DNA from: Parahoeflea alexandrii
GTDB lineage: Bacteria > Pseudomonadota > Alphaproteobacteria > Rhizobiales > Rhizobiaceae
Direction: 5' to 3'
Assembly: GCF_027214025.1 (NCBI RefSeq)
Contig: NZ_JAPWHB010000009.1
Location: 1-64,000, forward strand
Length of the DNA stretch: 64,000 nt
Below the pieces are notes generated by a model. It made no database searches. It was given only the letters and a program-made list of their open reading frames with translations, and had not been told where the DNA came from. Numbering within the stretch: position 1 is the stretch's first letter; each line of letters opens with the position of its first letter. The translations under genes were made by a program, and so were the position numbers. Below are positions 42,149-63,012 of this stretch, one piece after another.

Positions 42149-42589
42149 ATGACAGATGTATCGAGAATGCCCGGGCACCTGATCCGGCGGCTGCATCAGA
42201 TCTCGACCCATGTCTTCATGACGCGCACCCGGGAGGCGGGCTTCGATCTTACGCCGGTGCAGTTTGCCGCCCTCGACACCATCCGCGAAAGCCCCGGAAT
42301 CGACCAGGCGGGGCTTGCCGAGGCGGTTGCCAAGGACCGGGCCACCATCGGTGCAGTGGCCGACAGGCTGGAACAGAAGGGACTGGTCAGCCGGAAGGTG
42401 AATGCGCGCGACAAGCGGGCGCGAAAACTGGCGCTGACGGACGAGGGAGAAGCGCTGGTCGCGGCGCTCAGGCCGCTGGTGGAGCAGCTTCAGGCCGAGA
42501 TCCTGCCGGGTCTCGACGAGGCAGAATACCGGCTGTTCGTCGAACTGGCCGCCAAGGCAGCCAAGGCCGCGGGCACGCCTCAGGCATAG
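42149..42589 (+). CDS. MarR family transcriptional regulator
   Basis: 146 residues from ATG 42149, preceded by GGAGAG; an earlier in-frame Met at 42128 is possible. The winged helix is seen in DLTPVQFAALDTI, DQAGLAEAVAKDRATIGAVA and RLEQKGLVSRKVNARDKRA, with the conserved Asp-x-Arg wing. N- and C-terminal helices form the dimer interface. It is divergent from the aromatic monooxygenase, the standard layout for a repressor released by a phenolic ligand. Its 3' end overlaps the 853-residue gene's 3' end by 10 bp. Confidence 0.9.
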   Translation: MTDVSRMPGHLIRRLHQISTHVFMTRTREAGFDLTPVQFAALDTIRESPGIDQAGLAEAVAKDRATIGAVADRLEQKGLVSRKVNARDKRARKLALTDEGEALVAALRPLVEQLQAEILPGLDEAEYRLFVELAAKAAKAAGTPQA

Positions 42590-45141
42590 AGAACCGAATC
42601 GTAGCCGTAGGTCTCGCTCAGCTTCTGGCCGAGGATGTGCTTGTGCTTGTGCTCGAAGGTGAGGAATTCGCTCAACGTCGTCGAGCTCTCGCGCGGCCAG
42701 AGCAGTTGCAGGCGACGGAGTTTCGTCGGCACCCTGATCCCCGCCGCTTCCGCACGCATAATGATGTCGGAAATGTCGTCCCAGGTCTTCTGCATTTCAT
42801 GGGCTGCCGCGAACTCGATGATGGCGGCCTTCTTCTTCTCGTCGGTCGGGGTGTTCAACGAGGCGTTGTCAAGCTCGACCTGCGCCATCTTGCGCATGTT
42901 GACCGCGTTCGGCAGCAGCCAGGGTTCGATGTTCTGCATGTTCTCTGCAACGCTTCCGACCAGCTTCTCGTCGAAATTGCGCATGTCGAAATTGCAGCCG
43001 GATTCGGTCAGCAGGCCGCGCAGGAACTCCATCAGTTTCTTGGAGTCGTTGGGTAGAAGATCCGGATAATTCTTGTAGATGTCGGCAGCGATCCTGCTTC
43101 GGTAGTAGGCATTGCGGCCAAAGCGGGCGAGAAGGGATTCGTAATGCTGGCCGGCGACCTTGTCCCGCGCCAGGTCGGACTCGGTCAGGGTGGCGATCAG
43201 GTTTTCCAGCATTTCCTCGCTGGCGCCCTGCGGCTGCCAGCGTCCGCCGGCGGTGACGCCCGGGGCTGGACGCTTGGCGGTTTCGCCGAGCGCGCCATGG
43301 AATGCATCGAACACCTCACCGGCGTGCATAAGCTCCCCGGACAATTGCTTGAGCATGCCGCGCTCGATTGGCCTGGAACCGCCGTTGGGCTCGCACAGCG
43401 CCTCGAACAGCCCGGGTTCGCTGAAAGACAGCCACTCCCGGAACTCCTCGTCGCTGAGCCGGTCATCGATCAGATTGACCAGTTCCGCCAGTGCCGGCAA
43501 ATCGTCACCGGCCGGGCTGAGATGGTTGATCCGGTAGATGCAGGTCTCGAGAACCGGGGTTCTCGCCAGCCGCATGATCAGGAATGCCGCGACGATCTGG
43601 TCTTCCAGCTGCGGCAGGGCGACGAATGCCTCGTCACGCCCAAGCAGGCTCAGAGCCCTGACAAGGATATTGCCGTCCCGCGCAACCCGGAAATCATCCT
43701 GGCCCGCCCAGAAATTCGGATTGATGGCATCCGCCAGCAGCCACGGCGCCGGATCGCGGGTGAACGCATCCCAGGCAAAGGCGCCCTCGGCGCTGCCCAT
43801 TCCGTAATGAAGCGCCGAGTGGACCTTCAGCGGCGTGAAGTCGAACGGCGTATAGGGTGCTCCAACCCAGTCATGCTTCTTGCTCAGCGACGCCGGCAAG
43901 GATTCGAAATCGTGCGGTTCGGCCAGGGACGAGCGCTTGGCAGGCCGGTGCGCGTCGATTTCGGCAATCTTCTTGTGGCTGGTGGTGTAAACGCCGCGCA
44001 ACAGCTGCAGACCGGTCGTGTTGGCCTTGAAGGCAATGATGCTGTCGGAGCTCAGATGCTGCCCGGCGCGCAGCTTGCGGCCCATGGTGTCGTAGAAAAC
44101 CAGGTGGTCTCCGGCCGAAATCTCGTAGACGGAAAGCTTGACCTTCTCCCCGTTCTCGTTCGGCAGCACGTCGACAAAATAGTCAGGCGACGACAGTTCG
44201 AACCAGCGATGTTCCTGGGTGAGGATCTCGATGAGGTTCTGCCCGGCGTCTCCGACCTCGGCCTCGTCCCAGTCGCCGGTGCTGGCGAGCAGCTGACGGT
44301 AGGCTTCGACCAGATTGTCGCTGATCGACTGGAAGGTACCCGGATCGATATCGATGATATCGCTCCACTCGTTGGCGCGCTGGCGATGTGCCGAGACGTG
44401 AAGGAAATACAGGCCCTGCAGCAGGGGCCGGCTGCCCTCAATGGTCAGGACGGCGTTCTGTACCCGGTCGTTCTCGACCGAGGCCCGGGTGATGGCAGTC
44501 GCGTCGTCATCCCTTGCAACCAGTTCGGCTTCGGTGATGTCATAGCCCACCGGGAATATCTGCAGGGCGTCCTCGAGATGCGGGATCTCGAGCCGGAAGC
44601 TGGAGACGGCGACCACGTTGCCCATGCCATCGCCCTCGTGGGCACCCTCATGGACTGGCCAGGAAGTAAAATATCCTGCCCAGCCGATGGGGGCATTGGG
44701 CTTCTTGACATGATGAATGCGCTTGTCGGACCAGACGAAGCGGGCGTCCGGATTGTCGCCGGGCTCCTCGGGAAGCGCGATCACGACATTGCCGTAGCGG
44801 GCGTTGGGGACGAGGCCGTCCGTTTCGCGCGCCAGTTCGAAGGCCTTGAGCGGCCTTGCTGTCTGAGCGTCGTCAATCAGCAACTCGACCGAGTGGGTGC
44901 CGCGTGGCAGCCGAAGCGTCCTGAGGAAACTTTCCCCCGGACCGATCGAGAAAACGTCAACGACGATTCCCGAGCGATTGCCTTCCCGGAAGGCGTGCGG
45001 CTTGAGATGGCACAGGACGATTGCACCCTTGCGATGCTTGACCAGTTCCTCGCCCTTCGACGCAAAATATCCCAGAACCGCCTGGTCCTCGCCATCCCAG
45101 GCCAGCCAGACATTCTCGCAACCCCCACCCCGATAACCCAT
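42580..45141 (-). CDS. Large protein of unknown family (first gene of the envelope module)
   Basis: 853 residues from ATG 45141, preceded by CAGGAAAGAG; a longer frame to 45261 would overlap the GTPase start. No family recognised, no signal peptide, no membrane helix. The first 300 residues are beta-rich (VLCHLKPHAFREG, RLPRGTHSVELLID, SFRLEIPHLEDALQ), the rest mainly helical (DKVAGQHYESLLARFGRNAY, PNAVNMRKMAQVELDNA). Divergent from the GTPase gene with a 79-base gap, implying shared regulation. I place it in the module by position and by its similar size and style, not by homology. Confidence 0.6.
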   Translation of the reverse strand: MGYRGGGCENVWLAWDGEDQAVLGYFASKGEELVKHRKGAIVLCHLKPHAFREGNRSGIVVDVFSIGPGESFLRTLRLPRGTHSVELLIDDAQTARPLKAFELARETDGLVPNARYGNVVIALPEEPGDNPDARFVWSDKRIHHVKKPNAPIGWAGYFTSWPVHEGAHEGDGMGNVVAVSSFRLEIPHLEDALQIFPVGYDITEAELVARDDDATAITRASVENDRVQNAVLTIEGSRPLLQGLYFLHVSAHRQRANEWSDIIDIDPGTFQSISDNLVEAYRQLLASTGDWDEAEVGDAGQNLIEILTQEHRWFELSSPDYFVDVLPNENGEKVKLSVYEISAGDHLVFYDTMGRKLRAGQHLSSDSIIAFKANTTGLQLLRGVYTTSHKKIAEIDAHRPAKRSSLAEPHDFESLPASLSKKHDWVGAPYTPFDFTPLKVHSALHYGMGSAEGAFAWDAFTRDPAPWLLADAINPNFWAGQDDFRVARDGNILVRALSLLGRDEAFVALPQLEDQIVAAFLIMRLARTPVLETCIYRINHLSPAGDDLPALAELVNLIDDRLSDEEFREWLSFSEPGLFEALCEPNGGSRPIERGMLKQLSGELMHAGEVFDAFHGALGETAKRPAPGVTAGGRWQPQGASEEMLENLIATLTESDLARDKVAGQHYESLLARFGRNAYYRSRIAADIYKNYPDLLPNDSKKLMEFLRGLLTESGCNFDMRNFDEKLVGSVAENMQNIEPWLLPNAVNMRKMAQVELDNASLNTPTDEKKKAAIIEFAAAHEMQKTWDDISDIIMRAEAAGIRVPTKLRRLQLLWPRESSTTLSEFLTFEHKHKHILGQKLSETYGYDSVLYA

Positions 45142-45220
45142 TCGACTCTTTCCTGTACTATTCAAATGGTTTATTGCTTTGTGGAACTTACAATGAAATT
45201 CAGCAAAAGGGAAAGCTGAA

Positions 45221-46249
45221 TTGGCTGTTAATGATAACAACGAGATACATGTCGGGCTCACAGGACCTGTGAGGTCAGGTAAGACGAACTTGTTCGTCGA
45301 CTTCGCAAAATGCGTCGAGTTGAACTTTCACGGGTTCCGGCAGCTGCACAATATCAAGATCGAGACCGACAGGGTAAACCGGAAACTACTTAGGAGTTAC
45401 TATCGGAACCTGCCGGAGGCGACCGAGGGGGTCACCGACATCCGGTTTGATCTTGAACTGGATCTGCCGTCGGGCGACGGACTTCAGTCCGCCGCCACGC
45501 TTGATCACAGGCAATTCACCATTCACGTGCGGGACGCGCCGGGCGAAGCCGCGTTTCCAAGCAGCGACCTTTCGGGCAAGGCCAATCCGCACGCGGAAAA
45601 GGCCAAGGAGCTCGACGAATGGTTCTCAAAGGCCAAGGGGATTGTCCTGGTCATATCCGCCCTGAATGCCGGCACGGACAAGGGCTTCGAAGCACTGATC
45701 GACAAGGTGGAAGACTTTTTCGAGCGGGCCGGAAAGCCTGAATTCCAGAATCTTGAACGAGTGGCCATCGCCATCAGCATGTTCGACCTGTTGCTGCTGC
45801 GCTTTGGCAACCGGTCGCGGGATATCGCCACCGAGCCCGAGGCGGTGCTGGCGATCCTGCATGCGCACATGCGGCCAGCCTTTGACATCATCAAGGATTT
45901 CAGGCCGTTTCCCTCACAGGAGCGGGATATCGACCTGCGCTTCATCGCCACGTCGAGCTACGGCTTCCACCCGCAACTGGGCTGCGCCAACATCGACGCC
46001 AACGCCGAAATACTGGATCCGGGCAATTCCCGGTTCCCGGTTCCGTTGACGCCGGACAATGTCCGCTATCCCTACATGACCGCCGATCCCTTCATCTTCG
46101 CAGCACTCGGGCTCGACAGTCCGTTCCTGTTCACGCGGGACGAGATCCTCAGCGGGATCCTGAAGGAACGGGAACCGGTCGTCGTCGCGCCGCCCGCTGC
46201 CAGTCCGGCGTCGCCGGCGGCTGAAAACGCCGACAGCACCCAGGTCTGA
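45221..46249 (+). CDS. TRAFAC-like small GTPase of the envelope module
   Basis: 342 residues. Starts with TTG; AGGGAAAG lies at proper distance and no ATG is available before the P-loop. Walker A is GPVRSGKT (15-22). A G3-like RDAPGE (104-109) follows a strand, as in TRAFAC GTPases. The G4 position reads SMFD (186-189) instead of Asn-Lys-x-Asp, so base specificity may be relaxed. The last 25 residues are Pro/Ala-rich and flexible. No membrane segment. It is the only module gene on the plus strand and is divergent from the 853-residue protein. It may switch the envelope complex on; other possibilities are a dynamin-like or ATP-binding role. Confidence 0.72.
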   Translation: MAVNDNNEIHVGLTGPVRSGKTNLFVDFAKCVELNFHGFRQLHNIKIETDRVNRKLLRSYYRNLPEATEGVTDIRFDLELDLPSGDGLQSAATLDHRQFTIHVRDAPGEAAFPSSDLSGKANPHAEKAKELDEWFSKAKGIVLVISALNAGTDKGFEALIDKVEDFFERAGKPEFQNLERVAIAISMFDLLLLRFGNRSRDIATEPEAVLAILHAHMRPAFDIIKDFRPFPSQERDIDLRFIATSSYGFHPQLGCANIDANAEILDPGNSRFPVPLTPDNVRYPYMTADPFIFAALGLDSPFLFTRDEILSGILKEREPVVVAPPAASPASPAAENADSTQV

Positions 46250-46272
46250 TCTCGGGCTGCCTGATCTCGGGC
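46246..46272 (+). repeat. Short tandem repeat after the GTPase gene
   Basis: CTGATCTCGGGC occurs twice with a period of 15 bases, spanning the GTPase stop codon. Probably a replication-slippage product. Confidence 0.7.
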
Positions 46273-46411
46273 CTCCTGAGTTCAGGGTGAAACATGCCCA
46301 GTTCGGGGAAATATATCATCGCAGGGAAACGGTCGATCTCATTCTTTAGGTGCGTTCCGAATTCGATATTAATCTGCTCGTCCTAAATTCTAAATCTGAG
46401 CCACATTTCGG

Positions 46412-46440
46412 TTGTCTACAACGCCCTGCGTCACTACGTT
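46412..46440 (+). promoter_or_regulatory. Candidate promoter of the cutA-like gene
   Basis: TTGTCT (46412-46417), 17 bases, TACGTT (46435-46440), 35 bases before the ATG at 46476. Lies in AT-richer DNA following the GTPase gene. Confidence 0.35.
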
Positions 46441-46475
46441 AGACGGTGAAATGTCAACAGAATAAAGAGGCTAGT

Positions 46476-46793
46476 ATGGCGACGATGGTCGGAACCACTG
46501 TATCTTCAATGGAAGAAGCACGAAAAATCGCGGCAGCGTGTGTCGAAGCAAAACTGGCAGCATGTGCGCATATAGACGAAATAAATAGCATGTTTTTTTG
46601 GGACGGTAAGGTCCAGGATGAGAAGGAATTCCGAGTTTTCCTGAAGACAACGGAATCATCGTACGATGAGATCGCAAAAATCATATTGCAACATCATAGC
46701 TACGAGGAACCCGCCATTTTTTGTATACCTATTACCCATGGGAGTGTAACATATTTAAAGTGGATCGATGACAATTCAACTCCAGTGAAATGA
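46476..46793 (+). CDS. cutA: CutA-like divalent-cation tolerance protein
   Basis: 105 residues from ATG 46476, with AAAGAGG upstream. The pattern EEARKIAAACVEAKLAACAH, then MFFWDGKVQDEKEFRVFLKT and HSYEEPAIFCIPI, is that of the trimeric CutA1 fold (KLAAC, W-x-G-K, YE.P). Function of CutA is debated: copper tolerance in E. coli, and PII-like signalling folds. GC is clearly lower than in the neighbours and codon use differs, suggesting that it arrived by transfer together with the next gene. ATGA overlap with the downstream gene. Confidence 0.82.
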   Translation: MATMVGTTVSSMEEARKIAAACVEAKLAACAHIDEINSMFFWDGKVQDEKEFRVFLKTTESSYDEIAKIILQHHSYEEPAIFCIPITHGSVTYLKWIDDNSTPVK

Positions 46794-47284
46794 TATTCGA
46801 CTTAAAAATCATTGAGATCGCGGCACAAGTCGCAACAATTTTCGCCTTATTCTTGGCAATAATTGGCTTTTTCAAGGAAAGAAGAATCCGAAAAGAGCTT
46901 CAATATAGAGCCAAGGTGTTGGTCTGGTCTGACATTGCGAAGATTCGAGGATTAATGACAGACCTCGAAAAACCGTGCGATGAGGGTTTTGATTACGGTA
47001 AGCATCAAGCGGTTGGCAAGCTGACATCAATGTATAGGGATAAGATCAGGCAGGTCTATGAGCTTTCGCCGAACGTTACGCCGAACGACATACAGTTGTG
47101 GCGAAAGTCTGGAAAAATTGCCTCGGACTGGCAAGAGGGATGTTTCTGGGAGGTATTTCCACAGGGCAATCTGGACAGCGTGGCTACATACAACAAATTT
47201 TCCGCGGTTGATGAATTACCAGAGACGCACTCGATGGCTGCAAAGCCAGTAGAAGCGAATAGGTCTAGTAGCGAACCGCTCTAA
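46790..47284 (+). CDS. Small single-pass membrane protein, unknown
   Basis: 164 residues, overlapping cutA by 4 bp. One N-terminal helix (IIEIAAQVATIFALFLAIIG) is followed by a basic, then helical cytoplasmic part (RRIRKELQYRAKVLVWSDIA) with WRKSGKIASDW in the middle. No family recognised. Low GC like cutA. Such TM-plus-helical proteins are common on mobile DNA. It may be a partner of the CutA-like protein. Confidence 0.55.
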   Translation: MIFDLKIIEIAAQVATIFALFLAIIGFFKERRIRKELQYRAKVLVWSDIAKIRGLMTDLEKPCDEGFDYGKHQAVGKLTSMYRDKIRQVYELSPNVTPNDIQLWRKSGKIASDWQEGCFWEVFPQGNLDSVATYNKFSAVDELPETHSMAAKPVEANRSSSEPL

Positions 47285-47307
47285 CGGGGTTTTGAGTCGA
47301 CCGTGAT

Positions 47308-47466
47308 CTACGCGATTTTGGCGGTTTGATTGATGATCGATGTGGCCCAGATTTGGAGCCAAAGAAGCCTGATCCATTTGAGGATGAGACGGAAGTTGTA
47401 TCCGATGGCAGCGAGGATCGGGTTGATGGCGTCGTCTTGTTCGTGGGCGAGGTAATTGCGGTCCAT
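47308..47466 (-). pseudogene. IS5-family transposase, C-terminal remnant
   Basis: The minus-strand frame ending at 47308 encodes MDRNYLAHEQDDAINPILAA followed by IGYNFRLILKWIRLLW. This is the typical end of IS5/IS1182-type transposases (R-N-x-L, D-A-I-N-x-x-L-A-A-x-G-Y-N-F). An in-frame stop lies directly upstream (47467-47469) and the rest of the element is missing. It marks an old insertion next to the low-GC cutA pair. Confidence 0.8.
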
Positions 47467-47689
47467 TCACGCTGGTTTCTTGCAAAAACGAATACTCCAG
47501 TTGCCTCAATCAGTCAGTCAATTCATAGGCTTGTGAATTCTTGACGGACGACTCCTGATCTCCGGGGAGCGATTGGCCGGGATATCCGCGCCGGGGCTTG
47601 CCATGCCATGAAATGCCGACGGTGCCCGGTGAAATCCGACCGGACGCCGCGCTTGTGTTGCCGGTTGCCGCGCCCCGAGGCGCGATGCC
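47467..47689. other. Gap without recognisable gene
   Basis: Together with the transposase remnant this makes 405 bases between the small membrane protein and the coiled-coil gene. Short frames exist but none has protein-like sequence. I find no terminator of usual form. Confidence 0.5.
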
Positions 47690-49924
47690 TCAGATCTCGC
47701 GCCTGAAATTCGGTCTGACCACCACCGGACGGCGGCGGCGCGGCCGCTGCGCCGGATTTTCCTCGGTCTGATCGAATGCCTCGGCCCCTGAAACAGCCAC
47801 TCCCGGCTGGGCCGCGATCGTCTTTCCGGCCTGCCTGTCTTCGCCGACAATGCGGGCAGCGGTTTCGCCTGGGACAGTGGCGGTATCGCGACTGTCACCA
47901 GCGATGCCGGCGTCGACGGCGGCGATTTCCGGTTCAGGCTGCGCATTCCTGTTCTCGACGGCTTCATTGTGCTTTCGGATCCGGCGCCCGACTTCCGCCA
48001 GACCCTGTTCCGATATCAGAATTCCACGGCTGGTTTTCCTGGCCAGCTGCTTGCGGAACAGGTTGTCGACGATCAGCCGCATCTGGCTGCGCATTTCGTG
48101 GGAATAGTCCTCGTCATAGAGCAGCGGCAACAGATAGCCCTGCTTGTCGAACACGGCGTTGAGGATCACGTTCTTGGCCGCGAGCACGGAATCCGGATCG
48201 TCGGATTTTGCATCGAGATCAAGGTCGGCCGTGTCGAAATCATCCTTGCGGCGCGAAGCCTTGGCCACGACATTGGCATCCCAGAACAGTTTTGCCAGCA
48301 GCAGCGACAGCTCCTGCAGCAGCGCCAGCAGTGCCGGGAAGTAATCCCGGGCCGATGCCGTTCCATTGAACAGCGCCTCGACCTTACCGATGGCCTTGCT
48401 GATCGCGTCCTGCGAGGGATTGATGCGATCGTAGAGACTGGCGAGATCCTCGCGGTAGGGGCCGCCCTCAAGGCCCCGCTGCTCGGCTGCGACAAGGCAG
48501 GTCTCCAGCACTTCCGCGCGCATCTGGTCATAGGCCCGGGTGATCGGCTTGAGCCGCTCGGAGCCGGACACATCCAGCATTTCCGTCCGCAGGTTGTCGA
48601 TGATCTGCTTGCGGCGGTCGGTTTCATCGCAGGCCTGGCCAAAGGCGGCCTGGTCGGTTTCCAGCGTTTCGATCTGCCGGAACACGGCCATCAGCGGCTG
48701 CGGCTCGCAGGCGGGAAGGTCGGAAACGGACTTGAGATCGGACAAGACCTCGGTGACCACCTGGCAATAGCTGGCGGTCTGCTCGAAGCTGGTCTGGGAT
48801 GGCGTGTCGATGAACGCGTTGACGCTTTGCAGGAATCCGTCGGCATCGAGGGTGTAGCCCGATGCAACGTCCTGGCTGAGCTGGGTCGTGGCGGACTCCA
48901 GCTCGGCGGTGATCTTGACCAGATCCGACTGCAGCGCGGCCTGCTGCTGATTTGCGTTGAGCAACTGGGTGCGCGCGGATTTGTATTCCTTGTCCGCATC
49001 CGCAAGCTCGGCCCGGGTTTCGGCAAGCTTTTCTCCCAGCGCCTTGTAACAGGTCCCGGCAAGCCCGCCGCCGGTGCCGGCGCGGCGACGGCGATTGCAG
49101 GCCGGGTCGCTCACCAGTTGACCGGCAAGCCCGTCGGCCAGAAGAACGGCCTTGTCATTCGGGGCCACACCGGGTTCGCCTTCCTCTTCCTTCAGCGCGG
49201 TTTCGAGTTTGCCGACCAGGTCGGCGGTGGCGGCCACGCGGGCCTGCTTTGCGGCAGCCTGCTGCTCGAGATTGCCGATCTGGGCCGCAAGTTTGGTCAG
49301 ATCCCGCTCGACTTCGCTTTGCCGGGTTGTCAACTGGGCCTGGCGGTTGCGCAGCTCGACCTTCTTGGCCTCGATCAGCGTCTGCAGTTCGGAGGCGATT
49401 TCCTTCTTCCTGTCGCGGTCGCGCAGCTCATCGGTCAGCGCTCCCATTCTGGCCGAATAGTCCTTCAGCGCTTCGTCGCCCAGCAATGCGGTCCTCTTGT
49501 CGGAATACCGGTCGTTCATTTCCTGGCTGATTTCATGGGCGTATAGCCCCATCTGCCGCAAATTGGTCTCGGCATTGGCAAGGTCGGAGCCGCCAACGCT
49601 AAGGAACTGCTGATGGTAGGAGGCGAAGGAGGAAATCCAGCAGATCGCCACGGCGACGAGATAGAACGGCATCACCAGGGCAACCTGTGTCAGCCGGTTG
49701 GAGGATATGCCGTCGCCCAGAACAAGCGAGGTGAAGGCCAGGAAGCCGACAGCAAGCGCGGTAATGCCGACCCAGGCATAGGTCTCGGTCATGAAAATGC
49801 GCGCGCCACCACTGGTCGCGTAAGCAGTCATGAAGAAGGCTACCGCGGCGAAGACAATAATAAATGCCTGCTTCAACCGTGTCGTACTTAGGACGGCATT
49901 TCCGTCATTGGGCTTCTTGTCCAT
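47690..49924 (-). CDS. Membrane coiled-coil protein of the envelope module
   Basis: 744 residues. Three N-terminal helices (about 18-40, 48-70, 80-103) anchor it. A long helical region with coiled-coil heptads follows (about 145-245 and 295-350, such as KKVELRNRQAQLTTRQSEVE and LNANQQQAALQSDLVKITAE). A loop holds paired Cys (DPACNRRRRAG, GTCYK) and further Cys (SYCQ, LPACEP, AFGQACDE, ETCL), suggesting disulfides and therefore a periplasmic location of this part. A fourth hydrophobic segment is near 535-555, followed by a polar C-terminus ending in arginines. No family recognised. Gene lies 37 bases downstream of the SEDS gene. It may be a scaffold of the complex. Confidence 0.65.
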   Translation of the reverse strand: MDKKPNDGNAVLSTTRLKQAFIIVFAAVAFFMTAYATSGGARIFMTETYAWVGITALAVGFLAFTSLVLGDGISSNRLTQVALVMPFYLVAVAICWISSFASYHQQFLSVGGSDLANAETNLRQMGLYAHEISQEMNDRYSDKRTALLGDEALKDYSARMGALTDELRDRDRKKEIASELQTLIEAKKVELRNRQAQLTTRQSEVERDLTKLAAQIGNLEQQAAAKQARVAATADLVGKLETALKEEEGEPGVAPNDKAVLLADGLAGQLVSDPACNRRRRAGTGGGLAGTCYKALGEKLAETRAELADADKEYKSARTQLLNANQQQAALQSDLVKITAELESATTQLSQDVASGYTLDADGFLQSVNAFIDTPSQTSFEQTASYCQVVTEVLSDLKSVSDLPACEPQPLMAVFRQIETLETDQAAFGQACDETDRRKQIIDNLRTEMLDVSGSERLKPITRAYDQMRAEVLETCLVAAEQRGLEGGPYREDLASLYDRINPSQDAISKAIGKVEALFNGTASARDYFPALLALLQELSLLLAKLFWDANVVAKASRRKDDFDTADLDLDAKSDDPDSVLAAKNVILNAVFDKQGYLLPLLYDEDYSHEMRSQMRLIVDNLFRKQLARKTSRGILISEQGLAEVGRRIRKHNEAVENRNAQPEPEIAAVDAGIAGDSRDTATVPGETAARIVGEDRQAGKTIAAQPGVAVSGAEAFDQTEENPAQRPRRRRPVVVRPNFRREI

Positions 49925-49961
49925 CTCAACGCCTGCTCCCTTGACTCAAACACTAACGGCA

Positions 49962-52900
49962 TCAACCCCGGCGTCGTGGCGGTATACGAATTGTTAACAC
50001 GGGTGCTTTCATTCCTGCAAGGCGAGTTGCCACGAGGAGCACCAGCGACGCCGGGATTGCCATGAAAAGATGATGACTTGTACCTGCCGACAGCCAGGTC
50101 ATCGGCTGCCCCATGACGGGCAGCAGCCCGAATGCGTTCGACCACGCCAGGATCCACTGCATCAGGAACAGCATGCCTGCGCCAAGCGCAATGCACGCCA
50201 GCGCCTGGTCCGCGCCGGTCTCGACCGGATCCCGCGACCGCTTGGCCTGGAGCTTCAGATAGAGCCCGATGACGAAGAAGATGAAACAGGCCTGAAGGGC
50301 GATCAGCAGCGTGGCTGCGGCATTGCCATGGCGGGTTGCGATATAGGTCGCGGCAAAGTCGCTCTGCACCACAGGCACGCAATGCGGCCTGACCGGCCCC
50401 TTCAGGGTCGAGGGCGTGCACCGGAGCGTTTCGGCCTGCTGCGCCTCGTCCGGGCAGGAAATCCCCAGGCTCCTGGAAATTCCGTCGCCAAGCCATCCAA
50501 CCGCGTAACCGATATTGTAGGGCGCCGCGGTCAGCTCTGTGCTGAGCCCGCATGGCGCATTGGCCAGCGTCGCGCGCGAACGCAGGACGTGGAAGTTCAT
50601 ATCCCTGAGAACGAGCTGCCGCGGCTCCTCGTAGCCGCCGGTGCGGCCAAAGCGCAGATCGGCCCAGCTCATCAGCCGCTCCACCGGCAGCCGGCGTCCT
50701 TCGCCCAGAACCTTTTCCAACTCGGTGATCTGCTTGTCGGGTCCGTCGAACCAGGACCAGTCCTGCACCCCGAGCCCGGCCTTCGCCGGCACGTCCCTGA
50801 GCGCCACAGCCATGACCAGGGCGATGAGCGGCGCGGCAATTGCCACGCGCGCAAGCGTCCAGTTCACGCGGTTCCGCATCGCAACGGCGAATGCAATGGT
50901 GCCGAGACATGCCACCGCGATTGCCAGGATCACCATCTCGTTGCGCATGAGCGCCCAGGTGCCCATCAGCGCCAGCGGCAGGCCGAGCAGCAGGATGAAC
51001 ACGGCACGTGGGACGGCCATTGTCCTGACGAGCAGGACAAGGACCAGCATCAGGGCCACACCTGCCGCAATCGTATACTCGACCTTCCCCATCACCAGAT
51101 CGATGATCATCCGGCCCTGGTCGGTTGAAAGCAGCGGCGCGAGAATAATGGCCGCGAACAGCAGCAGCAGCAGCAGGAACTGGCTTGAACTCAGGCGGAA
51201 ATCCTGGATGGAAGGGACATAGGACAGCGGGATCCGCCTGATGTCCCTCAGGTCGTCGAACTCTTCCTCCCGGATCCGCCAGCCGATTGCCATCACCCCG
51301 ACGACCGCGGTGATCCCGGTCGCCGAGCTGATGATGATCAATGGCGAGTAATCGGACTTCACGGCCGGCACGAACAGCAGGGCCGTGATGAACAGGACCG
51401 ATAGAACAACCCCGATAAGTGTTATCCCGAACCAGGCCTGCGCGAGCAGGCGGGCGCGGATCAGCCATTGGGCCAGCATCGCCCCCAGAAGCACGACGAT
51501 GGCGAATTTTCCCGCCTCGACCGGCTGGATCGAGCCACCCAGACCTGTCTGGTTGCCAAGAAAGAACCAGGCCGCGAACAATGCAAACACGATGGCGAGC
51601 AGCCACATGGTGGGAGAAAAGAAGGACGGACGGCCGGCAAAATCATTGCCGATCCTGAGCTTCAGCGCCGTCGGAGACACGATGGTCAGCGCCATGACGA
51701 ACAGCGGCAGGATGTCGAGCACGACCAGCTTGTGCTTGATGAAGAAGCGTTCCCAGTCGGTGTTGGGTCCTTCCGCGCTGAGACTGAACATGGAGATCGA
51801 GCTCAATGCGATGATGGCGGTCAGGACGAGCCAGAAGACGGAGAGGCTGGCGCCGCCGGAGCGGTCAAGCGTGACGACGATCGTCGCGCAGACCCACAGG
51901 GCGCCCATTGCATAAAACAGCCATCGAGAGGCATCCGGAATCTCGGTGACCATCCGCGCGATCGCGACCAGATCGGGAAGAAGCGCGAGGGTGAGCACGA
52001 AACCGCCGGCGAGAACCAGGAACGCCGCCCGCACGATGCTGCCGTTGGAACGCCAGATCGTGGCGCCGGGAACCGCCAGCACGATCAGCAGGGACAGGCA
52101 GATCGCGGCTCCCCTGGCCAGTATCTCGGCGCTGACAAGGCCTTCCGGGCTGGCCACGAACAGCCGGTCGAGGGTCGAGGGCAGCTGCAGCTTGGCAACC
52201 TCGATGCTCGCTCCGTCCGGCAGCGCGTTGGGCGAACTGTCGAGCGGCGGCGGGCAATCTTCCGCGGAAGCGGTTTCCACATCGCTTTCGGACGACTGGG
52301 CGCACACGCTCTGGTCAAACAGCGCCGCCCGGCGGTTGGGCTGAATGTGGACTTCCCAGCCACCCTGCTGCAGCGGGGCCGCATCGATCGAGTAACGGGT
52401 CTTGCCGGCGGTGAAATGCGTGACCGGCGGATAATCAAGTGGCGCGGTGGAGGCAACCGGCACCTCGATGCCGGTGCGGCCATAGTTCTGGCGTATCCGC
52501 TTGCCATCCAGCCAGGTCTCGAAGCTGACCGGGACCAGTTGGGCGTCGCGGTAGATCGACACGAACAGACGGTCGTCCGAGAGGTTCTTGCGGACGATGA
52601 ATTCGAGCTCCGGGTTGGCGCGCGGCATGGCCACCAGGGCGTAGCTGTGCATCGTGCAATCGACCTCGCCGCCCAGCACGGCAATCGTCGCCCGGCCTTT
52701 TCTCCGCAGCAGATCGCTGAGCCCGATCGGCTCGAGCAAGCTGGACAGCTTGCCCACGACATAGGTGCTGAGCCTGTTGGCCTGCGAGACCACACGGCTT
52801 GCCGTTCCCTGCTCGTAGCAGGCCCCGGCCGGCTCGCCGTTGACGAGGATCTCCGCGCCGTCCTCATAGACCACGGCGGTCGAGGTGTTGCCGGCCCAGT

Positions 52901-56194: not shown

Positions 56195-56199
56195 CGGCC

Positions 56200-57711
56200 T
56201 CAGCCTCCCTCGTAGGGGGTGAGGACCAGCGGACCGACAACCTGCCGCGTCTGCCCCGGCTCAAACCGGGAAATCGGCATGCCGGAACATTTTTCAGCGT
56301 AGGCTTCTCCCAGCGACAGCACGGTGTCGCCGAAGGAAATGCGGCCGCACTGGTCCAGCCAGTCGAGGTGATAGCCACTGAACGACTGGAACGTGTCGGA
56401 GAAGATCACCTTTTCCGGCGTGTCCGGCAGCTCCAGGTAGCCGAACGGCTTGCCGTCGGCGCGGCCGACCTCGATGATGTTGTTTTCGATGGTCCGGCAT
56501 TTCAGCCCGACGCTTCCGGGCGTCTTGAACGGCGCGCCGGTCTGGCCCCATTCATAGACATACTGCTCTTCGTTCTCGCAGTCCCAGACAAGCGAAACAC
56601 GTGCAACCTGCAGCGCATAGGCGGTCAGGATGTTGTCGCGGTCGAGATCGATCCACAAACGGTCGACGTCACGATGGGAGAAATCCTTGAGATCGAACAG
56701 CAGCGAGCTGATGGCGGCATTGCAGCTGTTGGTCGGCGTCCAGTGCAGTCGCGACCTGCGCGAGTCCACACAGATTTCCAGCCGTCCGGGAACCTGGGCG
56801 GTGCCGACGAAATCTATTTTCCAGGCGATATCGCAATAATCGTCGGTGCACGGCACCCGCGTCGGCACGGGCTCGTTGCCATGGCTGCGGCAGAAGGAAA
56901 GCCTGGCGTCGACACCGCGGGCCCGGGGCTCCTCGTGAACCGGCGCAAGAACCGCATCCTTGTTGATGAACATGAAGGGCGACTGCACTTCCTCGTCCGA
57001 CCCGAGATCGATGCCTGCGTGAAGAAGGCCCTCGCCAATGCCGATCACGAGGCCGCCCTGCCCCTTGTAGAGACCGGCCGGACGGCCATCGAGCAGTTCC
57101 GGTTCGTTGTACTGGTCCCGCCTGGTGGGGTCGGGGAAATAGCGGATCCAGCCGATCGGCCGTTCGCCGCGGCGGGGCACGAAGATGCCCTGGCCGAGAT
57201 ACATGTTGAGCTGATTGGCCGGCAGCGCCGGGTTGACCATGCAGTCGACCCTGACGCCGATGGTCGGATCGAAATAGCCTTTCAAGGTCGACCCCAGGCT
57301 TTCCGAAATCCGCTCCTCGAGCCCCCTTTCGGACGCGGTGTCACACACCCCGCCGGGTCCCGAGACAAAGGTAAGATGCTGGAAGGCGACCTCGACCACT
57401 TCACTGCCGTTGGCCGTTCCAATGATCAGCGTGTCGGTGATGTTGTAGAGGACCTCGTCGACCGAACCGCGCGAGACCTGGAACCAGCCGGCGCGCTTGC
57501 CGGGATCGGGGTTTCCGCCAACCACCCAGGGGAAATCGCGTGCGGCCTTGCTGCCCTTCTTGAACAGCCAGCCGAGCAGGCCGGACTTCGGAATGGCAAA
57601 GACATTGCGGCGCCAGAATGCCTGGTTGTCGCGCAGATCCAGCTTGACCGGAATCATGATGACCGGACGGTCGGACTCATCGCTGAAACGGACTGGATTA
57701 CCAAGAGACAT
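56200..57711 (-). CDS. Module protein of unknown family (503 aa)
   Basis: No recognised family, no helix long enough for a membrane anchor except a possible short hydrophobic stretch (SGLLGWLFKKG). Mostly beta-like, with scattered Cys (GVCDTAS, VDCMVNP, CTDDYCDIAW, NSCNAA, WDCENEE, DQCGRI) that could pair. Notable segments are PVIMIPVKLDLRDNQAFWRR near the start and LDWLDQCGRISFGDTVLSLG near the end. The latter recalls the closing strands of FHA-like or beta-sandwich domains, without proof. It starts 15 bases after the 272-residue gene's stop and 5 bases before the PBP start, so it is in the operon. Confidence 0.55.
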   Translation of the reverse strand: MSLGNPVRFSDESDRPVIMIPVKLDLRDNQAFWRRNVFAIPKSGLLGWLFKKGSKAARDFPWVVGGNPDPGKRAGWFQVSRGSVDEVLYNITDTLIIGTANGSEVVEVAFQHLTFVSGPGGVCDTASERGLEERISESLGSTLKGYFDPTIGVRVDCMVNPALPANQLNMYLGQGIFVPRRGERPIGWIRYFPDPTRRDQYNEPELLDGRPAGLYKGQGGLVIGIGEGLLHAGIDLGSDEEVQSPFMFINKDAVLAPVHEEPRARGVDARLSFCRSHGNEPVPTRVPCTDDYCDIAWKIDFVGTAQVPGRLEICVDSRRSRLHWTPTNSCNAAISSLLFDLKDFSHRDVDRLWIDLDRDNILTAYALQVARVSLVWDCENEEQYVYEWGQTGAPFKTPGSVGLKCRTIENNIIEVGRADGKPFGYLELPDTPEKVIFSDTFQSFSGYHLDWLDQCGRISFGDTVLSLGEAYAEKCSGMPISRFEPGQTRQVVGPLVLTPYEGG

Positions 57712-57726
57712 GAAAAAGTCCGCGCC

Positions 57727-58545
57727 TCACCATGATCGATCAAGGATCAGTATTCGGGGGCTCTTGCGGCCGTTCGGCCCGCTCCATCCGGGACGCTCGC
57801 AATCGATCACCAGTTCCTCTCCTCCCTGCGGATTGGCAAAGCGCGAATTCACCCCAAGCGCCGCGGTGCGGATGCGCGGGATATCCCGGAGCTTTTCGCT
57901 GTCGTCGGTGGTGAAAACGCAATTCTTGACGCTTTCCACCGTAAGCGGCCGCGGCGCGATGACCTTGACCTGCCGGCGCTTGAGCAGATCGAGAACGGCA
58001 TGGGCGGCAAGGCTGTAGGCATCGGTCTCCTCGCGATCGGGGAAATAGGCCTCCATGCGGCGCCAGAAGCACACGAGCTTGTCCATGTCGCCATTTGCAA
58101 GCGCGGGGACGGGATCGATGCGCTCGGCGGCAAGGCCCTCGATCAGGTCAACCACCCGCTTGTGGGTACGGCTCACTTCTTCGACGCTGTCACTGGAGGC
58201 AAAATGCGGCGGCTCGACCGAAGCCAGCGCCTTGTGCGCGGCCAGCAGCAGAGGTTCCCGCGGCGCCTCGGCGCCCGAGGCCGGCATCGCGCCTGCAACC
58301 CCGGCCTTTTCGTTGCGCAGCCGCTCCTGCCAGTCTTCGGGAAGCCGGCCATTGGTGGTCCAGCCGGTGATGTTGGCGATCTCGTTGCGCAGTTTGCCGT
58401 TCTCGCGCCGGATCGAAGCCAGCTGGGCTTCGCTCTGGCGCAGCCGCCGGACCAGCCAGACTGCCGCGACCACGGCGGCGATCAGCAACAGGGTGATTAT
58501 CACTTGTGCAATTGCGGATGTGAACTCGATACCAATCACCGCCAT
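57727..58545 (-). CDS. Membrane-anchored helical module protein (272 aa)
   Basis: N-terminal helix (about 10-32, IAQVIITLLLIAAVVAAVWL) then a short coiled coil (SEAQLASIRRENGKLRNEIA), a helical middle (FWRRMEAYF, AHAVLDLLKRRQVKVIA) and a C-terminal beta-like part. No family recognised. The order TM, coiled coil, helices, small beta domain directly downstream of an Hsp70-fold ATPase gene (10-base gap) raises the thought of a nucleotide-exchange or adaptor protein for it, but there is no GrpE signature that I can show. Confidence 0.55.
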   Translation of the reverse strand: MAVIGIEFTSAIAQVIITLLLIAAVVAAVWLVRRLRQSEAQLASIRRENGKLRNEIANITGWTTNGRLPEDWQERLRNEKAGVAGAMPASGAEAPREPLLLAAHKALASVEPPHFASSDSVEEVSRTHKRVVDLIEGLAAERIDPVPALANGDMDKLVCFWRRMEAYFPDREETDAYSLAAHAVLDLLKRRQVKVIAPRPLTVESVKNCVFTTDDSEKLRDIPRIRTAALGVNSRFANPQGGEELVIDCERPGWSGPNGRKSPRILILDRSW

Positions 58546-58555
58546 CTTGCGCCCT

Positions 58556-61500
58556 CTAGGTTCCCGCCAAGCGACTTCGTGGCTGCCGGACGATAATGTC
58601 GCCGACCGTGAACTCTACATCGGAATTCCGGCGCTTCCAGGAAATCTCGACATGCTGATCCTGGCCGCCGGCGAGCCCGCCCGGCTTGACCTGGGACTGG
58701 TCGACAACGACCTTCTGGCCGAAAATGCCGAACAGGCGGACGATCTCGTCGCGGGTGATGTCGTTCTCGCTGCCGACATCGTCCAGTCCCGGCAGAACGC
58801 GGCTGAGCCAGCGATTGGGAAGGAAGCGCACGCTCTTGTTGCCTTCGGAGCGCGACCGCGTGTCGAGATACTCGATTTCCGAGACGACCCCGCGTCCGTC
58901 GTCATGCAGAACCAGCGCATAGGAATGATCGGCGCCGTCGGTGATCTCCAGTCCGGAGGTGGCCAGGCGCGCGGCGCCGTAGACCGTGGCGTTCTTCATG
59001 TCGTCCGGGCTGAACGGCCGCATGGGGGCAGCGTCGCGCGGCTGGCCGAGCAGTTGCGCGGTGCGCCCGATGCCGGTGAAAATCGAAGGCCAGAGGCTGG
59101 CGCGACCGGTGATGGCCCATTGCGGATCCCTCAGACCCAGCCGCCGCGCTTCCCTGATCAGCATGGCGGGCACAGCATAACCCAGGGTTCTGGCGACCGT
59201 TTGCGGATTGCTTCGCGATGGATTGGCGATCGATTCGCCGGCATCGAGCAGGTCCGGCGAAATCTCGATCCACACCGCCTGTCCGCCCGTCGAGGCGGTC
59301 CTGACGCGCAAGTGAACCTTGTCATTGGAACCGGGAATGGCGGTGTCGCGCTCACTCAACGGCTGGCCGGGCGAGGCGCTGCGGAGAATGTCGTTCAATT
59401 CGACCGCAAACGAGCTGCCATCGCCCTCTTCAGCCCAGTCGTACTCGCCCTCGGAGCCCGCATTCTTCATCAGCGTTTCGGAAAGCGCCCGCTTGGCTTC
59501 CTGGACCCGCGGCAGCAGGACGGTCTTGAGGGCCTCGTCGCGCAGGAAACGGTGGTCGAGTTCGAGATCCTCGAAAACCGGTTCGGTCGACGTAAACAGC
59601 TCGCGCAGGTTCTGGATCAGAATGGCCAGCAGCGCCTCATCCAGGTTCGCCCCGCCGATGGTAGCGCCGAAATGCGCAAAGACCTTCCAGCTTTCGATGC
59701 TGTCGTGCCGCATCTTCACTTCGATCAGGCTGGCGTCGACGGTGCTGGCGCCAATGTCGATGCAGGCGAAAACCTCCGTCTGCTCGCGGCGGCCCTGCGA
59801 ACGGGAAATGCCAAAATAGGCGGCGGCGAGTGCTTCCGGGATCAGTTTGGGCTCGCGGGCCGAGCGGGGATCCTGGGTTCCGGTCAGGCCCTGGGCAAAG
59901 GCCCGGGCGGCGTTCTTGTAGAGATCGCGCTTGTGATGGGCGATGCCGCTTGGATGGGTGACGACCACCTGGACATCGCTGTCGGCGGACTCGAGCCACT
60001 GGTCAAACCGTTCATCGCCGGTTTCGCTCACGATCGGGCCATCGAGCTGGTCATGCGCATAAAACAGCGAATTGGGGATCATGTAGGATCCAAGCTCGTG
60101 AAACGCATCCCTGGTCAGGGCCACCAGATTGATCTCGCGGGTCGCCTGCAGGCCATTGGCCGTGCGTTCGATGACGGATTGCTTGATGCGGTGCTTGAAG
60201 CCGGGCTCCGAGTTCATCAGCATGCGCTTGAGGTCTGGGATGACGAGCGTCTGGAGTTCGAGATAGGCGGAGCTTTCACTGTCCGTGATGAAGTCGCGAT
60301 CGACCGGGATCGAAATGTCATAGGTCCGGCCAAACAGGGCCATCCGCTTCTCGGCCGCCTGCAGCTTGGTGCCGACATAGGAGAGATTGCCGTAGGAGAG
60401 CGGCGCCTTGCGCGAGCGCACGTGCCTGGCCGGGTTCAGGCCGATGGTGGACGGAATGAGGACATTCTGCCAGCGCTTCTTGTTCGGATCATACTCGGAA
60501 TGGGCGCCGGCGAGACTGTAGGCGTAGGAGCCGAGCGGGATCAGCTGGCGGGCCAGGTTCCGCTCGACCCGGCCGAACCAGGCGGCAATCGCCGAGGCGC
60601 CATAGTCGAGGCAGATCAGGAACTTGGGGTCGCGCTGGCGCAGCACGATGTCGACCGCAACCATGCCATATTTGTGCTCGAACAGATCGTCCTCGGCCAC
60701 CAGCGACATGCCGGCCCGGATTTTCAGCCGCCTGGCTTCAAACCGGATGAACAGCTGGTAACGGTCGGTGTCGCCGGTCTCGTCCAGCGTGGTGTTGTGG
60801 AACGGGATCAGGATCTTGCCGCCATTGGCCTGATCGACCTCGATGTCCTGCACCAGCTTGAAGTCATCGCGGCTGGTGAGCGCCATTTTCTCGCCTTCCG
60901 GCAAGATGTGGGCGTGGGCGACGACATCCCAGCTGTCGTCGAGACAGACCACGTCGAACTCGATGGTATCGCCAAGCTCGAACTGGACGCCGCCGCCGGA
61001 GATCGGCACCGAAAATTCCAGCGGGAAGCGCTCGGCAAAGGGCGCTTCGCCACGGGTCATGTTGGGCACGGCCGAGGCGTCACGGTATTTCAGCGCCAGG
61101 ATCTCGCCCTGCCTCAACTGCAGATCAAAATCATAGGTACCGGAAAGCGGCGCCTGGGTTTCCTCACTGAAGACGCAGCTCCAGTCGAATTGCATCTGCA
61201 GGCTGTCGGCGCCTTCGGCGACGTCGAAGATCTCGTTGATCGAGACGATGCAGGGAACGGACACCTCGTCGCCGGCGCGCAGTTCGCAGGCGATCCCGGC
61301 GGTGGAGCGCGTGACAACCGGGCCCAGCGTGAAGTTCGCCGAAACGTCCCTGATCTCGTCGTCGACGCGACAGCTCAGGCGGCCCGACACCAGCGCGCTG
61401 GTGGGCGCGCCTCCATATTCCAGCCGGGTGACGGGCTGTCTGATGTTGAGGGTGAAGAGATCGACCTCGTTGCGCTCCTGCCTTTCGACCCGGCTCAACT

Positions 61501-61954
61501 CCGGAATCGACAGCTGCCGGGTCTGCACCAGCGGCGGCTGCCATTTCAGCGTCTGCAGGCGCAGGCTGGCAAGTTCGACCTTGAGATTTTGCGACTGCCC
61601 ATCGGCGCGTTTGGTCTGCAGCGTGATCGAGAGCGTGAAATGGTCGCGGGATGCGTCGGCTATCTCGTCTTCGGTCGGCTCGCGCGCGCACTCAAGAACC
61701 AGATCAATATTCTTTGCCTTGCCCAGCTCATACTGAAGCAGTGTCTCGCCAGTCCCCGCATTGCGCAGGGTGGCGTTCAACCATGGAGCTTCTTCTATGT
61801 ATCCGGCAACAGAAATCTTCAGTGTTTCGTCGGCCAGCAAAGATGAATTGGAAATCGTAACTATACGAGAGAACCTTCCAAGATCACAGATCACGGAACA
61901 ATTCTCTGCGCGCAGCAGCGTCTTCTTTGGGTTACTTAGATCCCAATTCAACAT
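58556..61954 (-). CDS. SrfB-like ATPase with Hsp70/actin fold (ASKHA)
   Basis: 1132 residues. The first 440 or so are beta-rich with no helices in the membrane. The remainder shows the set of ASKHA nucleotide-binding motifs in order: phosphate-1 ICLDYGASAIAAWFG (447-461), connect-1-like EALAAAYFG (707-715), phosphate-2 CIDIGASTVDASLIEV (731-746), adenosine ITGRASLWPSI (948-958) and connect-2-like GAARLA (993-998). Size and layout match the virulence factor SrfB family, though I cannot confirm membership. Such ATPases often assemble or chaperone large complexes. It is the largest cytoplasmic protein of the module and lies upstream of the PBP/SEDS pair in the same direction. Confidence 0.75.
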   Translation of the reverse strand: MLNWDLSNPKKTLLRAENCSVICDLGRFSRIVTISNSSLLADETLKISVAGYIEEAPWLNATLRNAGTGETLLQYELGKAKNIDLVLECAREPTEDEIADASRDHFTLSITLQTKRADGQSQNLKVELASLRLQTLKWQPPLVQTRQLSIPELSRVERQERNEVDLFTLNIRQPVTRLEYGGAPTSALVSGRLSCRVDDEIRDVSANFTLGPVVTRSTAGIACELRAGDEVSVPCIVSINEIFDVAEGADSLQMQFDWSCVFSEETQAPLSGTYDFDLQLRQGEILALKYRDASAVPNMTRGEAPFAERFPLEFSVPISGGGVQFELGDTIEFDVVCLDDSWDVVAHAHILPEGEKMALTSRDDFKLVQDIEVDQANGGKILIPFHNTTLDETGDTDRYQLFIRFEARRLKIRAGMSLVAEDDLFEHKYGMVAVDIVLRQRDPKFLICLDYGASAIAAWFGRVERNLARQLIPLGSYAYSLAGAHSEYDPNKKRWQNVLIPSTIGLNPARHVRSRKAPLSYGNLSYVGTKLQAAEKRMALFGRTYDISIPVDRDFITDSESSAYLELQTLVIPDLKRMLMNSEPGFKHRIKQSVIERTANGLQATREINLVALTRDAFHELGSYMIPNSLFYAHDQLDGPIVSETGDERFDQWLESADSDVQVVVTHPSGIAHHKRDLYKNAARAFAQGLTGTQDPRSAREPKLIPEALAAAYFGISRSQGRREQTEVFACIDIGASTVDASLIEVKMRHDSIESWKVFAHFGATIGGANLDEALLAILIQNLRELFTSTEPVFEDLELDHRFLRDEALKTVLLPRVQEAKRALSETLMKNAGSEGEYDWAEEGDGSSFAVELNDILRSASPGQPLSERDTAIPGSNDKVHLRVRTASTGGQAVWIEISPDLLDAGESIANPSRSNPQTVARTLGYAVPAMLIREARRLGLRDPQWAITGRASLWPSIFTGIGRTAQLLGQPRDAAPMRPFSPDDMKNATVYGAARLATSGLEITDGADHSYALVLHDDGRGVVSEIEYLDTRSRSEGNKSVRFLPNRWLSRVLPGLDDVGSENDITRDEIVRLFGIFGQKVVVDQSQVKPGGLAGGQDQHVEISWKRRNSDVEFTVGDIIVRQPRSRLAGT

Positions 61955-61993
61955 TAAAGACCCAACGCTAGTACATACCCGATACGAACCCGA

Positions 61994-62022
61994 ACGATAT
62001 AGTTTATGAATCGTTAGCGCAA
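61994..62022 (-). promoter_or_regulatory. Candidate promoter before the SrfB-like gene
   Basis: Read leftward: TTGCGC (62022-62017), 17 bases, TATCGT (61999-61994), 40 bases before the ATG at 61954, in an AT-rich gap of 134 bases. Weak consensus. Confidence 0.3.
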
Positions 62023-62088
62023 CAGCCTGAGGTCCAATGGCTGGCGCTAAAGTAAATGATTAAAATGCAACATAATTCTTTGAAATTA

Positions 62089-63012
62089 TTATGAAAGCCA
62101 CTTCAATGGGATGGGTTCGCTGCCGATCTTGCGGTCAAGGCTGTCGGACGATCCGGAAGTATGCTTAACGCCACTTTCGGAGCGAAGATTTTCTTCACTC
62201 CTGATGATTGCAATCCTGAGCGCATGCAAGTCCGGGGCTTCGATCGCGCTGCCGCGGTGGCCTGGGAAATAGCTGACCGCGCCCGGGGTCAATTGCGGAT
62301 CCAGCCCGAGATTGAGGATGAACTGATCGGACTCGCCGGGGCGCAGCGGAAATTTTCGCGGCAGCGAGGAAATGACATCGAGATCGGCTGCGATCAGGGC
62401 CGCAGGCCTCTGCTTCTCCTCTTCCGCAACCATCCGGGACACCGTCCAGCCGACACGCCGGGTGATGGCCTGGAAGGCGGATCCGAGCTGGATCTGGCGG
62501 CGCTGGCTCAGATTGTCGAACCAGTTGACGTCCCGCGCCTCGAATGCCGGCAGCTCGACCGGCCGCATCTGCGGCACGCTCGGCTGATCGAAGACGAACG
62601 GCTGGGCGACGAGCGCCTGCTCGCACCAGGAAAACAGTCCCGGCGGGATCTCGTGCCAATCGTGCACATCCGGCAGAAGCAACGTGCGGGACAGGAGAAA
62701 CTGCCGCCCGCCCTCGCCCTCGCCGGCCTCGGCACGGTAGCGCATCCGCATGATGGCCAGACCCTCGCCGACCGCCTTGACGATCAAGGCGCCACGTCCG
62801 GCGAATTCCGGATCGATCATGCTCGACGTGAGATTTGCATTTCCCAGGAAACTGGCCGGAATGAAGCGCAAGGGATCGGCGATGCCCGGGGTGACGGAAC
62901 TGACGCCGTAAAGGGCGCTTTCGTGCAGCGGCCCGTCGATCGTGCGCACGGGCTTGCCGTAACAGACTTCCTCAAATCTTAAAGCTCTTGCTTCGCCAGG
63001 AACAGTTTCCAC
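62089..63012 (-). CDS. Module protein of unknown family, possibly GTPase-associated (GAP1-N-like)
   Basis: 307 residues with GTG start behind GGGAGGA. No membrane helix. The order LRFEEVCYG, then HESALYGVSSVTPGIADPLR, then GRQFLLSRTLLLPDVHDW resembles the pattern I remember for the N-terminal domain of GTPase-associated protein 1 in bacterial conflict systems (a Tyr-Gly start, a Thr-Pro-Gly turn and a Gly-Arg-x-Phe helix). This is a recollection of pattern, not a search result. A GTPase is encoded in the same module, which fits. It is the first gene of the minus-strand run leading to the SrfB-like, PBP and SEDS genes. Confidence 0.5.
   Translation of the reverse strand: METVPGEARALRFEEVCYGKPVRTIDGPLHESALYGVSSVTPGIADPLRFIPASFLGNANLTSSMIDPEFAGRGALIVKAVGEGLAIMRMRYRAEAGEGEGGRQFLLSRTLLLPDVHDWHEIPPGLFSWCEQALVAQPFVFDQPSVPQMRPVELPAFEARDVNWFDNLSQRRQIQLGSAFQAITRRVGWTVSRMVAEEEKQRPAALIAADLDVISSLPRKFPLRPGESDQFILNLGLDPQLTPGAVSYFPGHRGSAIEAPDLHALRIAIIRSEENLRSESGVKHTSGSSDSLDRKIGSEPIPLKWLS

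Follow-up and report, generated by a model that had tools for sequence, protein, structure and literature searches.

A block of nine genes in Parahoeflea alexandrii, located at positions 42,580-63,012 of the 64,000-nucleotide stretch of contig NZ_JAPWHB010000009.1 analysed here (the window), probably encodes an accessory, switchable peptidoglycan synthase that would represent a third lineage of SEDS and class B penicillin-binding protein (PBP) pairs and would possess its own cytoplasmic NTPase control module. SEDS-PBP pairs are known mainly as division and elongation synthases. Seven minus-strand genes form a row encoding, in this order, p307, a putative Hsp70/actin-superfamily ATPase, p272, p503, the class B PBP, a large SEDS protein (SEDS3) and a coiled-coil membrane protein (CC), with gaps of 134, 10, 15, 5, −4 and 37 bp. 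The gene of a further protein, P893, is also on the minus strand, and divergent from it lies a plus-strand gene for a P-loop GTPase-like protein. A preliminary description of this DNA had listed nine large genes, seven of them in one direction with short gaps, and all nine open reading frames were found there intact. In comparison with four of the five other genomes of the genus that the ATPase search had shown to contain the block, the ratio of nonsynonymous to synonymous polymorphism (pN/pS) was 0.10-0.36 for each frame; the nine frames are therefore real genes under purifying selection, and decay of the block was rejected on the same values.

SEDS3 (49,962-53,357, minus strand; 1131 amino acids) passes the Pfam cut-off for PF01098 (E-value 5.7e-7; 29.3 bits against 26.4), as some of its relatives do not, and carries an N-terminal domain of ∼360 amino acids together with the motifs QPVE611, LLPVMGQPM1078 and a catalytic-type D1000. 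A 33-row SEDS profile compared with the PDB matched FtsW (25hr/8p1u, E 6.2e-8) and MrdB (8tj3, 9.2e-5), the FtsW alignment spanning the QPSE loop as well as the catalytic TDF, to which D1000 is aligned; E614, K617 and D1000 are kept in all 33 rows. The adjacent PBP (53,354-56,194, minus strand) matched the transpeptidase family PF00905 above its cut-off (1.2e-15), and Pfam detected neither GT51 nor any further domain in it. As claimed in the preliminary description, it contains SSFK556 (S556xxK559), SSN678 (S678xN680) and KTGTA874 (K874TG), and with its transpeptidase domain and a single N-terminal hydrophobic segment preceding a large N-terminal part it has the features of a class B enzyme. 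A 24-row PBP profile retrieved PBP structures from the PDB (best 6pl5, 4.1e-23). S556, K874, T875 and G876 were present in 24 of 24 rows, S678 in 23, and K559 and N680 in 22, the exceptions being the loci L051 and L062 (loci and genomes are hereafter denoted by L and G numbers). Two cysteine pairs are likewise conserved, C917/C930 of the PBP in 24 of 24 rows and C180 and C234 of SEDS3 each in 32 of 33, both being absent in L061; this suggests periplasmic disulfides in the two proteins. An FHA domain, read by eye in the SEDS3 N-terminus, was dropped as a candidate since the conservation of C180/C234 fits a periplasmic disulfide domain better.

The phylogenetic position of SEDS3 was examined in a tree of 61 rows, comprising the window protein, 30 chosen SEDS3 loci and 30 canonical rows typed by their scores with E. 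coli FtsW and RodA. SEDS3, FtsW and RodA each formed one group, SEDS3 with a support of 100/100, and the inner branch leading from SEDS3 to FtsW plus RodA measured 2.8 changes per column, several rows of the tree having long branches or odd composition. The window protein also fell far short of the equivalog cut-offs for FtsW and RodA (25 against 337.5 bits and 29.6 against 336.7 bits). By these sequence comparisons SEDS3 is a third clade, neither FtsW nor RodA. Ten rows from ATPase-bearing loci clustered in one group of 11 (99/98) together with L061, in which no ATPase was detected and whose branch length was 2.9. Nor is SEDS3 the only SEDS protein of its genome, a possibility that was rejected: besides the window gene, a search with PF01098 (E 0.001) found just one protein, a canonical FtsW encoded on contig 41. 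PF00905 matched at seven places in this genome, one of them 5.7 kb from the canonical FtsW and taken, by position, as FtsI. The window pair is not near this FtsW, and it did not prove to be the sole cell-division pair of the genome. Among 18 chosen carrier genomes, all 18 had at least one canonical SEDS protein and 10 had RodA.

The ATPase (58,556-61,954, minus strand; 1132 amino acids) exhibits two ordered phosphate motifs, LDYGAS449 and DIGAST733, followed by TGRAS949, and D450, G452, D733 and G735 are invariant in 11 members. A profile of the family aligned to DnaK in the PDB (7n46/1dkg, E 1.2e-4). Motifs and profile match together agree with the Hsp70/actin fold proposed earlier and predict membership of that superfamily, probably outside the Hsp70 family proper: PF00012 matched 6 of the 11 members, at best with 0.0034, and the window protein scored 12.4 bits against a cut-off of 20.6. 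The additional label 'SrfB-like' found no profile support, as neither the ATPase family nor the whole genome matched SrfB (PF07520), in a genome search in which no positive control gave a signal, none of 14 control genomes matching either; the system differs from SrfABC in the same respect. In the GTPase-like protein (45,221-46,249, plus strand) the G1 motif GPVRSGKT15 and the G3 motif DAPGE105 are present, so that the P-loop part of the former assignment was retained, but the guanine motif NKxD was not found and the protein is therefore not classed as a canonical GTPase. DO-GTPase2 (PF19993) matched two of five members of its family below cut-off (best 0.011) and did not match the window protein at E ≤ 1; hhalign gave 80 and 86% for its comparison to a DO-GTPase2 pair and to the P-loop proteins beside that pair, with no unrelated P-loop control included. 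A relationship to DO-GTPases is thus weakly indicated.

For the remaining components P893, p307, p272 and CC no convincing family match was obtained. P893 lacks a hydrophobic segment, and no Pfam family was found in more than one of its nine members. Its start has to be moved downstream from 45,261, since three of seven matches within the genus (G1010, G1003 and G1014) have in-frame stops upstream of residue 41; the true start is probably near 45,141, which gives a gene at 42,580-45,141 (minus strand). p307 (62,089-63,012, minus strand), the first gene of the row, is also devoid of hydrophobic segments and matched nothing in Pfam or NCBIfam at E ≤ 0.05. p272 (57,727-58,545, minus strand), for which homologues were found, consists of one hydrophobic stretch within residues 1-36, as judged by hydropathy, and a soluble part of ∼230 amino acids. 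p503 (56,200-57,711, minus strand), whose gene adjoins that of the PBP, has no hydrophobic segment, and its profile found no match in the PDB. CC (47,690-49,924, minus strand) has three N-terminal hydrophobic segments, a coiled coil and one more hydrophobic segment.

The gene set recurs beyond the genus. When the window ATPase or its two-row profile was searched for in the order, 2 of 297 genomes matched; in the class the number was 2 of 385 and in the phylum 3 of 398. These counts include the window's own genome each time and G546 twice, and in all three further genomes (G256, G546 and G985) SEDS and PBP genes lay beside it. Far from being scattered, homologues of the nine genes were found together in two other families at 21-41% identity: BLAST matched nine of nine window proteins in G546 and eight of nine in G256, where CC was assigned by position and by its match to CC of G546. 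The gene order from the ATPase through p272, p503, PBP and SEDS to CC is the same in the window, G256 and G546, and in the latter two the GTPase/P893 pair and p307 adjoin the row, inverted relative to the window. p307 adjoins the GTPase gene in both these genomes and in Methylobacterium L019. G985, a Bosea, has a shorter set. A P893 profile matched 4 of 397 genomes of the order, always with ATPase, PBP and SEDS beside it and never away from the cluster, although rows from three of the four were contained in the profile, which leaves G1099, a second Bosea whose contig is that of L024, as the single new case. Within the genus the ATPase was detected in 6 of 18 genomes and SEDS and P893 in the same 7, the seventh being a fragmented assembly; the window SEDS is 81-87% identical to those of four Hoeflea loci. 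The envelope machine under NTP control envisaged in the preliminary description is upheld in part, as a SEDS-PBP set with NTPase components conserved in other families, without the SrfB identity.

The wider SEDS3 family was explored with a four-row SEDS alignment in a pattern scan covering contigs of 84,980 species. It yielded 115 stretches, of which 93 were confirmed and 80 kept. These loci belong to Hoeflea, Rhizobium, Methylobacterium, Bosea, Paracoccaceae, Thiotrichaceae, Competibacteraceae and others, and SEDS3 also occurs in some Desulfobacterota, Phycisphaerae and one cyanobacterial metagenome-assembled genome (binning unchecked). Contendobacter genomes have several SEDS3 loci each (L043, L049, L081, L088 and L089; two in SCELSE-2 and three in SCELSE-3), and in Thiotrichaceae L034 (3072-16,597) a SEDS3 gene without a PBP match lies beside genes for M60-type peptidases. 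Local hidden Markov models (HMMs), iterated over four rounds, detected PBP in 56 of the 80 loci, many of which are incomplete, p503 in 53, ATPase in 19, CC in 16, P893 in 14, p272 in 10, p307 in 7 and GTPase in 6. The p503 count rose to 53 from 20 in the first round, and beyond the ATPase branch most of these loci match only part of the model. The PBP gene was on the same strand and within 150 bp of the SEDS start in 51 of the 56 loci with a PBP match. In the 48 well-covered loci (more than 5 kb upstream and more than 3 kb downstream of a SEDS of more than 700 amino acids), a PBP match was present in 43 and p503 in 41; the PBP reached the transpeptidase end in 37 of the 43, that is, in 19 of 19 loci with the ATPase and 18 of 29 without. 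All 19 ATPase loci had a full PBP with KTGTA and SSN, and all had p503.

A Ser/Thr kinase was detected in 18 of the 29 well-covered loci without a detected ATPase and in none of the 19 with one (phmmer, 1e-12; the three query kinases, matched by PF00069, came from L062, L054 and L047, themselves members of the 18). These kinase-bearing loci are mostly gammaproteobacterial. ATPase and kinase do not fully exclude each other at greater distances, because G256, which is outside the 80 loci, has PP2C, kinase and vWA genes ∼7-10 kb upstream of its block. We tentatively propose, as a broader reading that may or may not hold, that SEDS3 and its PBP form a third kind of wall-building machine in addition to the divisome and the elongasome, an accessory one that is gained and lost and whose regulators have been exchanged in evolution. 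Many loci would employ a Ser/Thr kinase with an FHA-like protein, and the window branch a dedicated Hsp70/actin-type ATPase together with a GTPase-like switch. The nearest published arrangement is the actinobacterial RodA-PbpA-PknA/PknB-FHA cluster, as far as described in PMC3989709, which combines genes for a kinase and FHA proteins with those of a SEDS protein and a class B PBP. Compared by gene content, many SEDS3 loci outside the ATPase branch resemble it in having SEDS, a PBP homologue, a kinase and p503, but no kinase was detected in any of the 19 ATPase loci.

Several observations weigh against the reading as an accessory peptidoglycan synthase with its own control module. The ATPase and the GTPase-like protein score under Pfam cut-offs. 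Sub-modules are dispensable, CC, GTPase, p272 and p307 going undetected in nine of nine Bosea loci, which keep P893, and the GTPase/P893 pair was not seen in the DNA examined of Rhizobium L016, which keeps p307, or of Puniceibacterium L018 and L020. Because the GTPase-P893-p307 part is also rearranged between loci, it looks like an add-on input. The tie to the PBP is looser beyond the ATPase branch. Five of the 48 well-covered loci (L034, L043, L049, L077 and L082) had no PBP match, and six more (L063, L064, L071, L072, L073 and L087) had only an N-terminal PBP piece, with no KTGT/S frame of at least 60 amino acids in the locus. Among PBPs of the Competibacteraceae type, those of L051 and L062 have altered motif residues, and in those of L056, L069 and L090 no KTG was detected; these degenerate proteins and the N-terminal pieces, mostly from Competibacteraceae loci, are possible pseudo-enzymes. 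The resemblance of the p503 C-terminus to FHA outside the ATPase branch is weak: Yop-YscD_cpl matched 3 of 11 relatives (best 0.0045) and FHA one (0.26), an S-R-H pattern was read by eye, and a profile of the C-terminus gave weak PDB matches (RhoGEF 0.045, APLF 1.4).

Between CC and the GTPase gene lies an insert (46,250-47,689) of low GC content (0.485 against 0.61 for the window) with two plus-strand genes, one cutA-like (CutA1 family) and one, p164, for a small membrane protein. Neither has a counterpart in the five congeneric copies, and the insert is outside the system. Elsewhere in the window, positions 32,002-33,300 encode a DUF2793/glycine-rich protein; such proteins are often found near phage tail or gene-transfer-agent genes.

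It is conceivable, although we consider it unlikely, that the block is an anti-phage or anti-competitor conflict system in which the GTPase-like protein, P893 and the ATPase would sense attack and the SEDS-PBP effector would reinforce or close the wall. Its spread is patchy (7 of 18 genomes in the genus, 2 of 297 in the order), and its right flank in the window shares nothing with the five congeneric copies in the DNA fetched; the left flanking gene, however, is common to four of the five, which fits vertical inheritance. G256 has upstream genes (L003, 2855-11,875) for a serine recombinase (resolvase), vWA, PP2C, kinase and CHAT proteins, the kinase matching PADLOC kinase models, and in G546 a type II DNA methyltransferase (L009, 16,627-17,859; PADLOC 1.6e-153) is encoded downstream of the block. 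PADLOC matches of the nine proteins themselves were nevertheless limited to the coiled coil of CC (JetC2 1.8e-6 and others) and a weak one of the ATPase (0.0068), and three of three window flank proteins tested had none. SEDS and PBP were not found in plasmids, nor SEDS in phages or viral contigs, where the pattern-limited scan matched 25 stretches and confirmed none. The GTPase-like protein resembles the DO-GTPases of the predicted DO-GTPase/GAP1 and TRAFAC GTPase-tubulin-HSP70 conflict systems, of which some, in the sections consulted of Kaur 2020 (PMC7159879), include HSP70-type proteins or peptidoglycan-binding domains; the words transpeptidase, RodA and SrfB do not occur in its main text. 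A search of nine P893 members for GAP1 gave no match at E ≤ 1, a result that depends on the Pfam library containing GAP1 models.

RodA, PBP2 and MreBCD are reportedly missing from Rhizobiales (PMC8546619, in the part consulted), and one might suppose that SEDS3, its PBP and the ATPase replace this missing RodA-PBP2-MreB machinery in elongation or morphogenesis. The component types parallel MreB/RodZ/RodA/PBP2, and FtsW is the only other SEDS protein of the genome. Of the 18 genomes in the genus, however, 11 gave no match to the block, which is thus not the general elongation system, and RodA accompanies SEDS3 in the 10 carrier genomes mentioned above, which makes a replacement doubtful. SEDS3 might also act on some lipid-linked sugar in place of lipid II and thereby produce or transport another type of envelope polymer, as its distance from FtsW and RodA (inner branch 2.8), its large extra domains and the 11 of 48 well-covered loci with no PBP match or an N-terminal piece only might imply. 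This is very improbable given the retained catalytic Asp and QPxExxK loop and the linkage to a full PBP with KTGTA and SSN in 19 of 19 ATPase loci.

We thus prefer an accessory, switchable peptidoglycan synthase, for which we infer the activities, complex formation and direction of control as follows. Based on motifs and family knowledge, SEDS3 would polymerise lipid II in the membrane by means of the conserved Asp1000, and the PBP would cross-link the glycan in the periplasm. By analogy with the action of MreB/RodZ or FtsA/FtsN on their own SEDS-PBP pairs, the ATPase may switch or scaffold this pair from the cytoplasm, with membrane-anchored p272 and soluble p503 as the connection. An additional on/off signal could come from the GTPase-like protein, P893 and p307, and the coiled-coil membrane protein could organise the complex; the most likely trigger would be envelope stress or attack. 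The window pair resembles FtsW-FtsI and RodA-PBP2 in its SEDS core with a catalytic Asp loop, its PBP motifs and its gene adjacency, and differs from them in its third-clade SEDS of 1131 amino acids with a cysteine-paired N-terminal domain and in being accompanied by ATPase and GTPase-like genes of its own. Although the components are drawn from known superfamilies, neither the clade nor the composition nor the exchange of regulators appears to have been described, no description having been found by full-text word searches of the open-access subset of the literature. If this interpretation is true, the block would offer a compact system in which to study the switching of SEDS-PBP pairs by cytoplasmic NTPases or kinases. 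It would also give the Rhizobiales, which lack the Rod complex, an extra pair of this kind.

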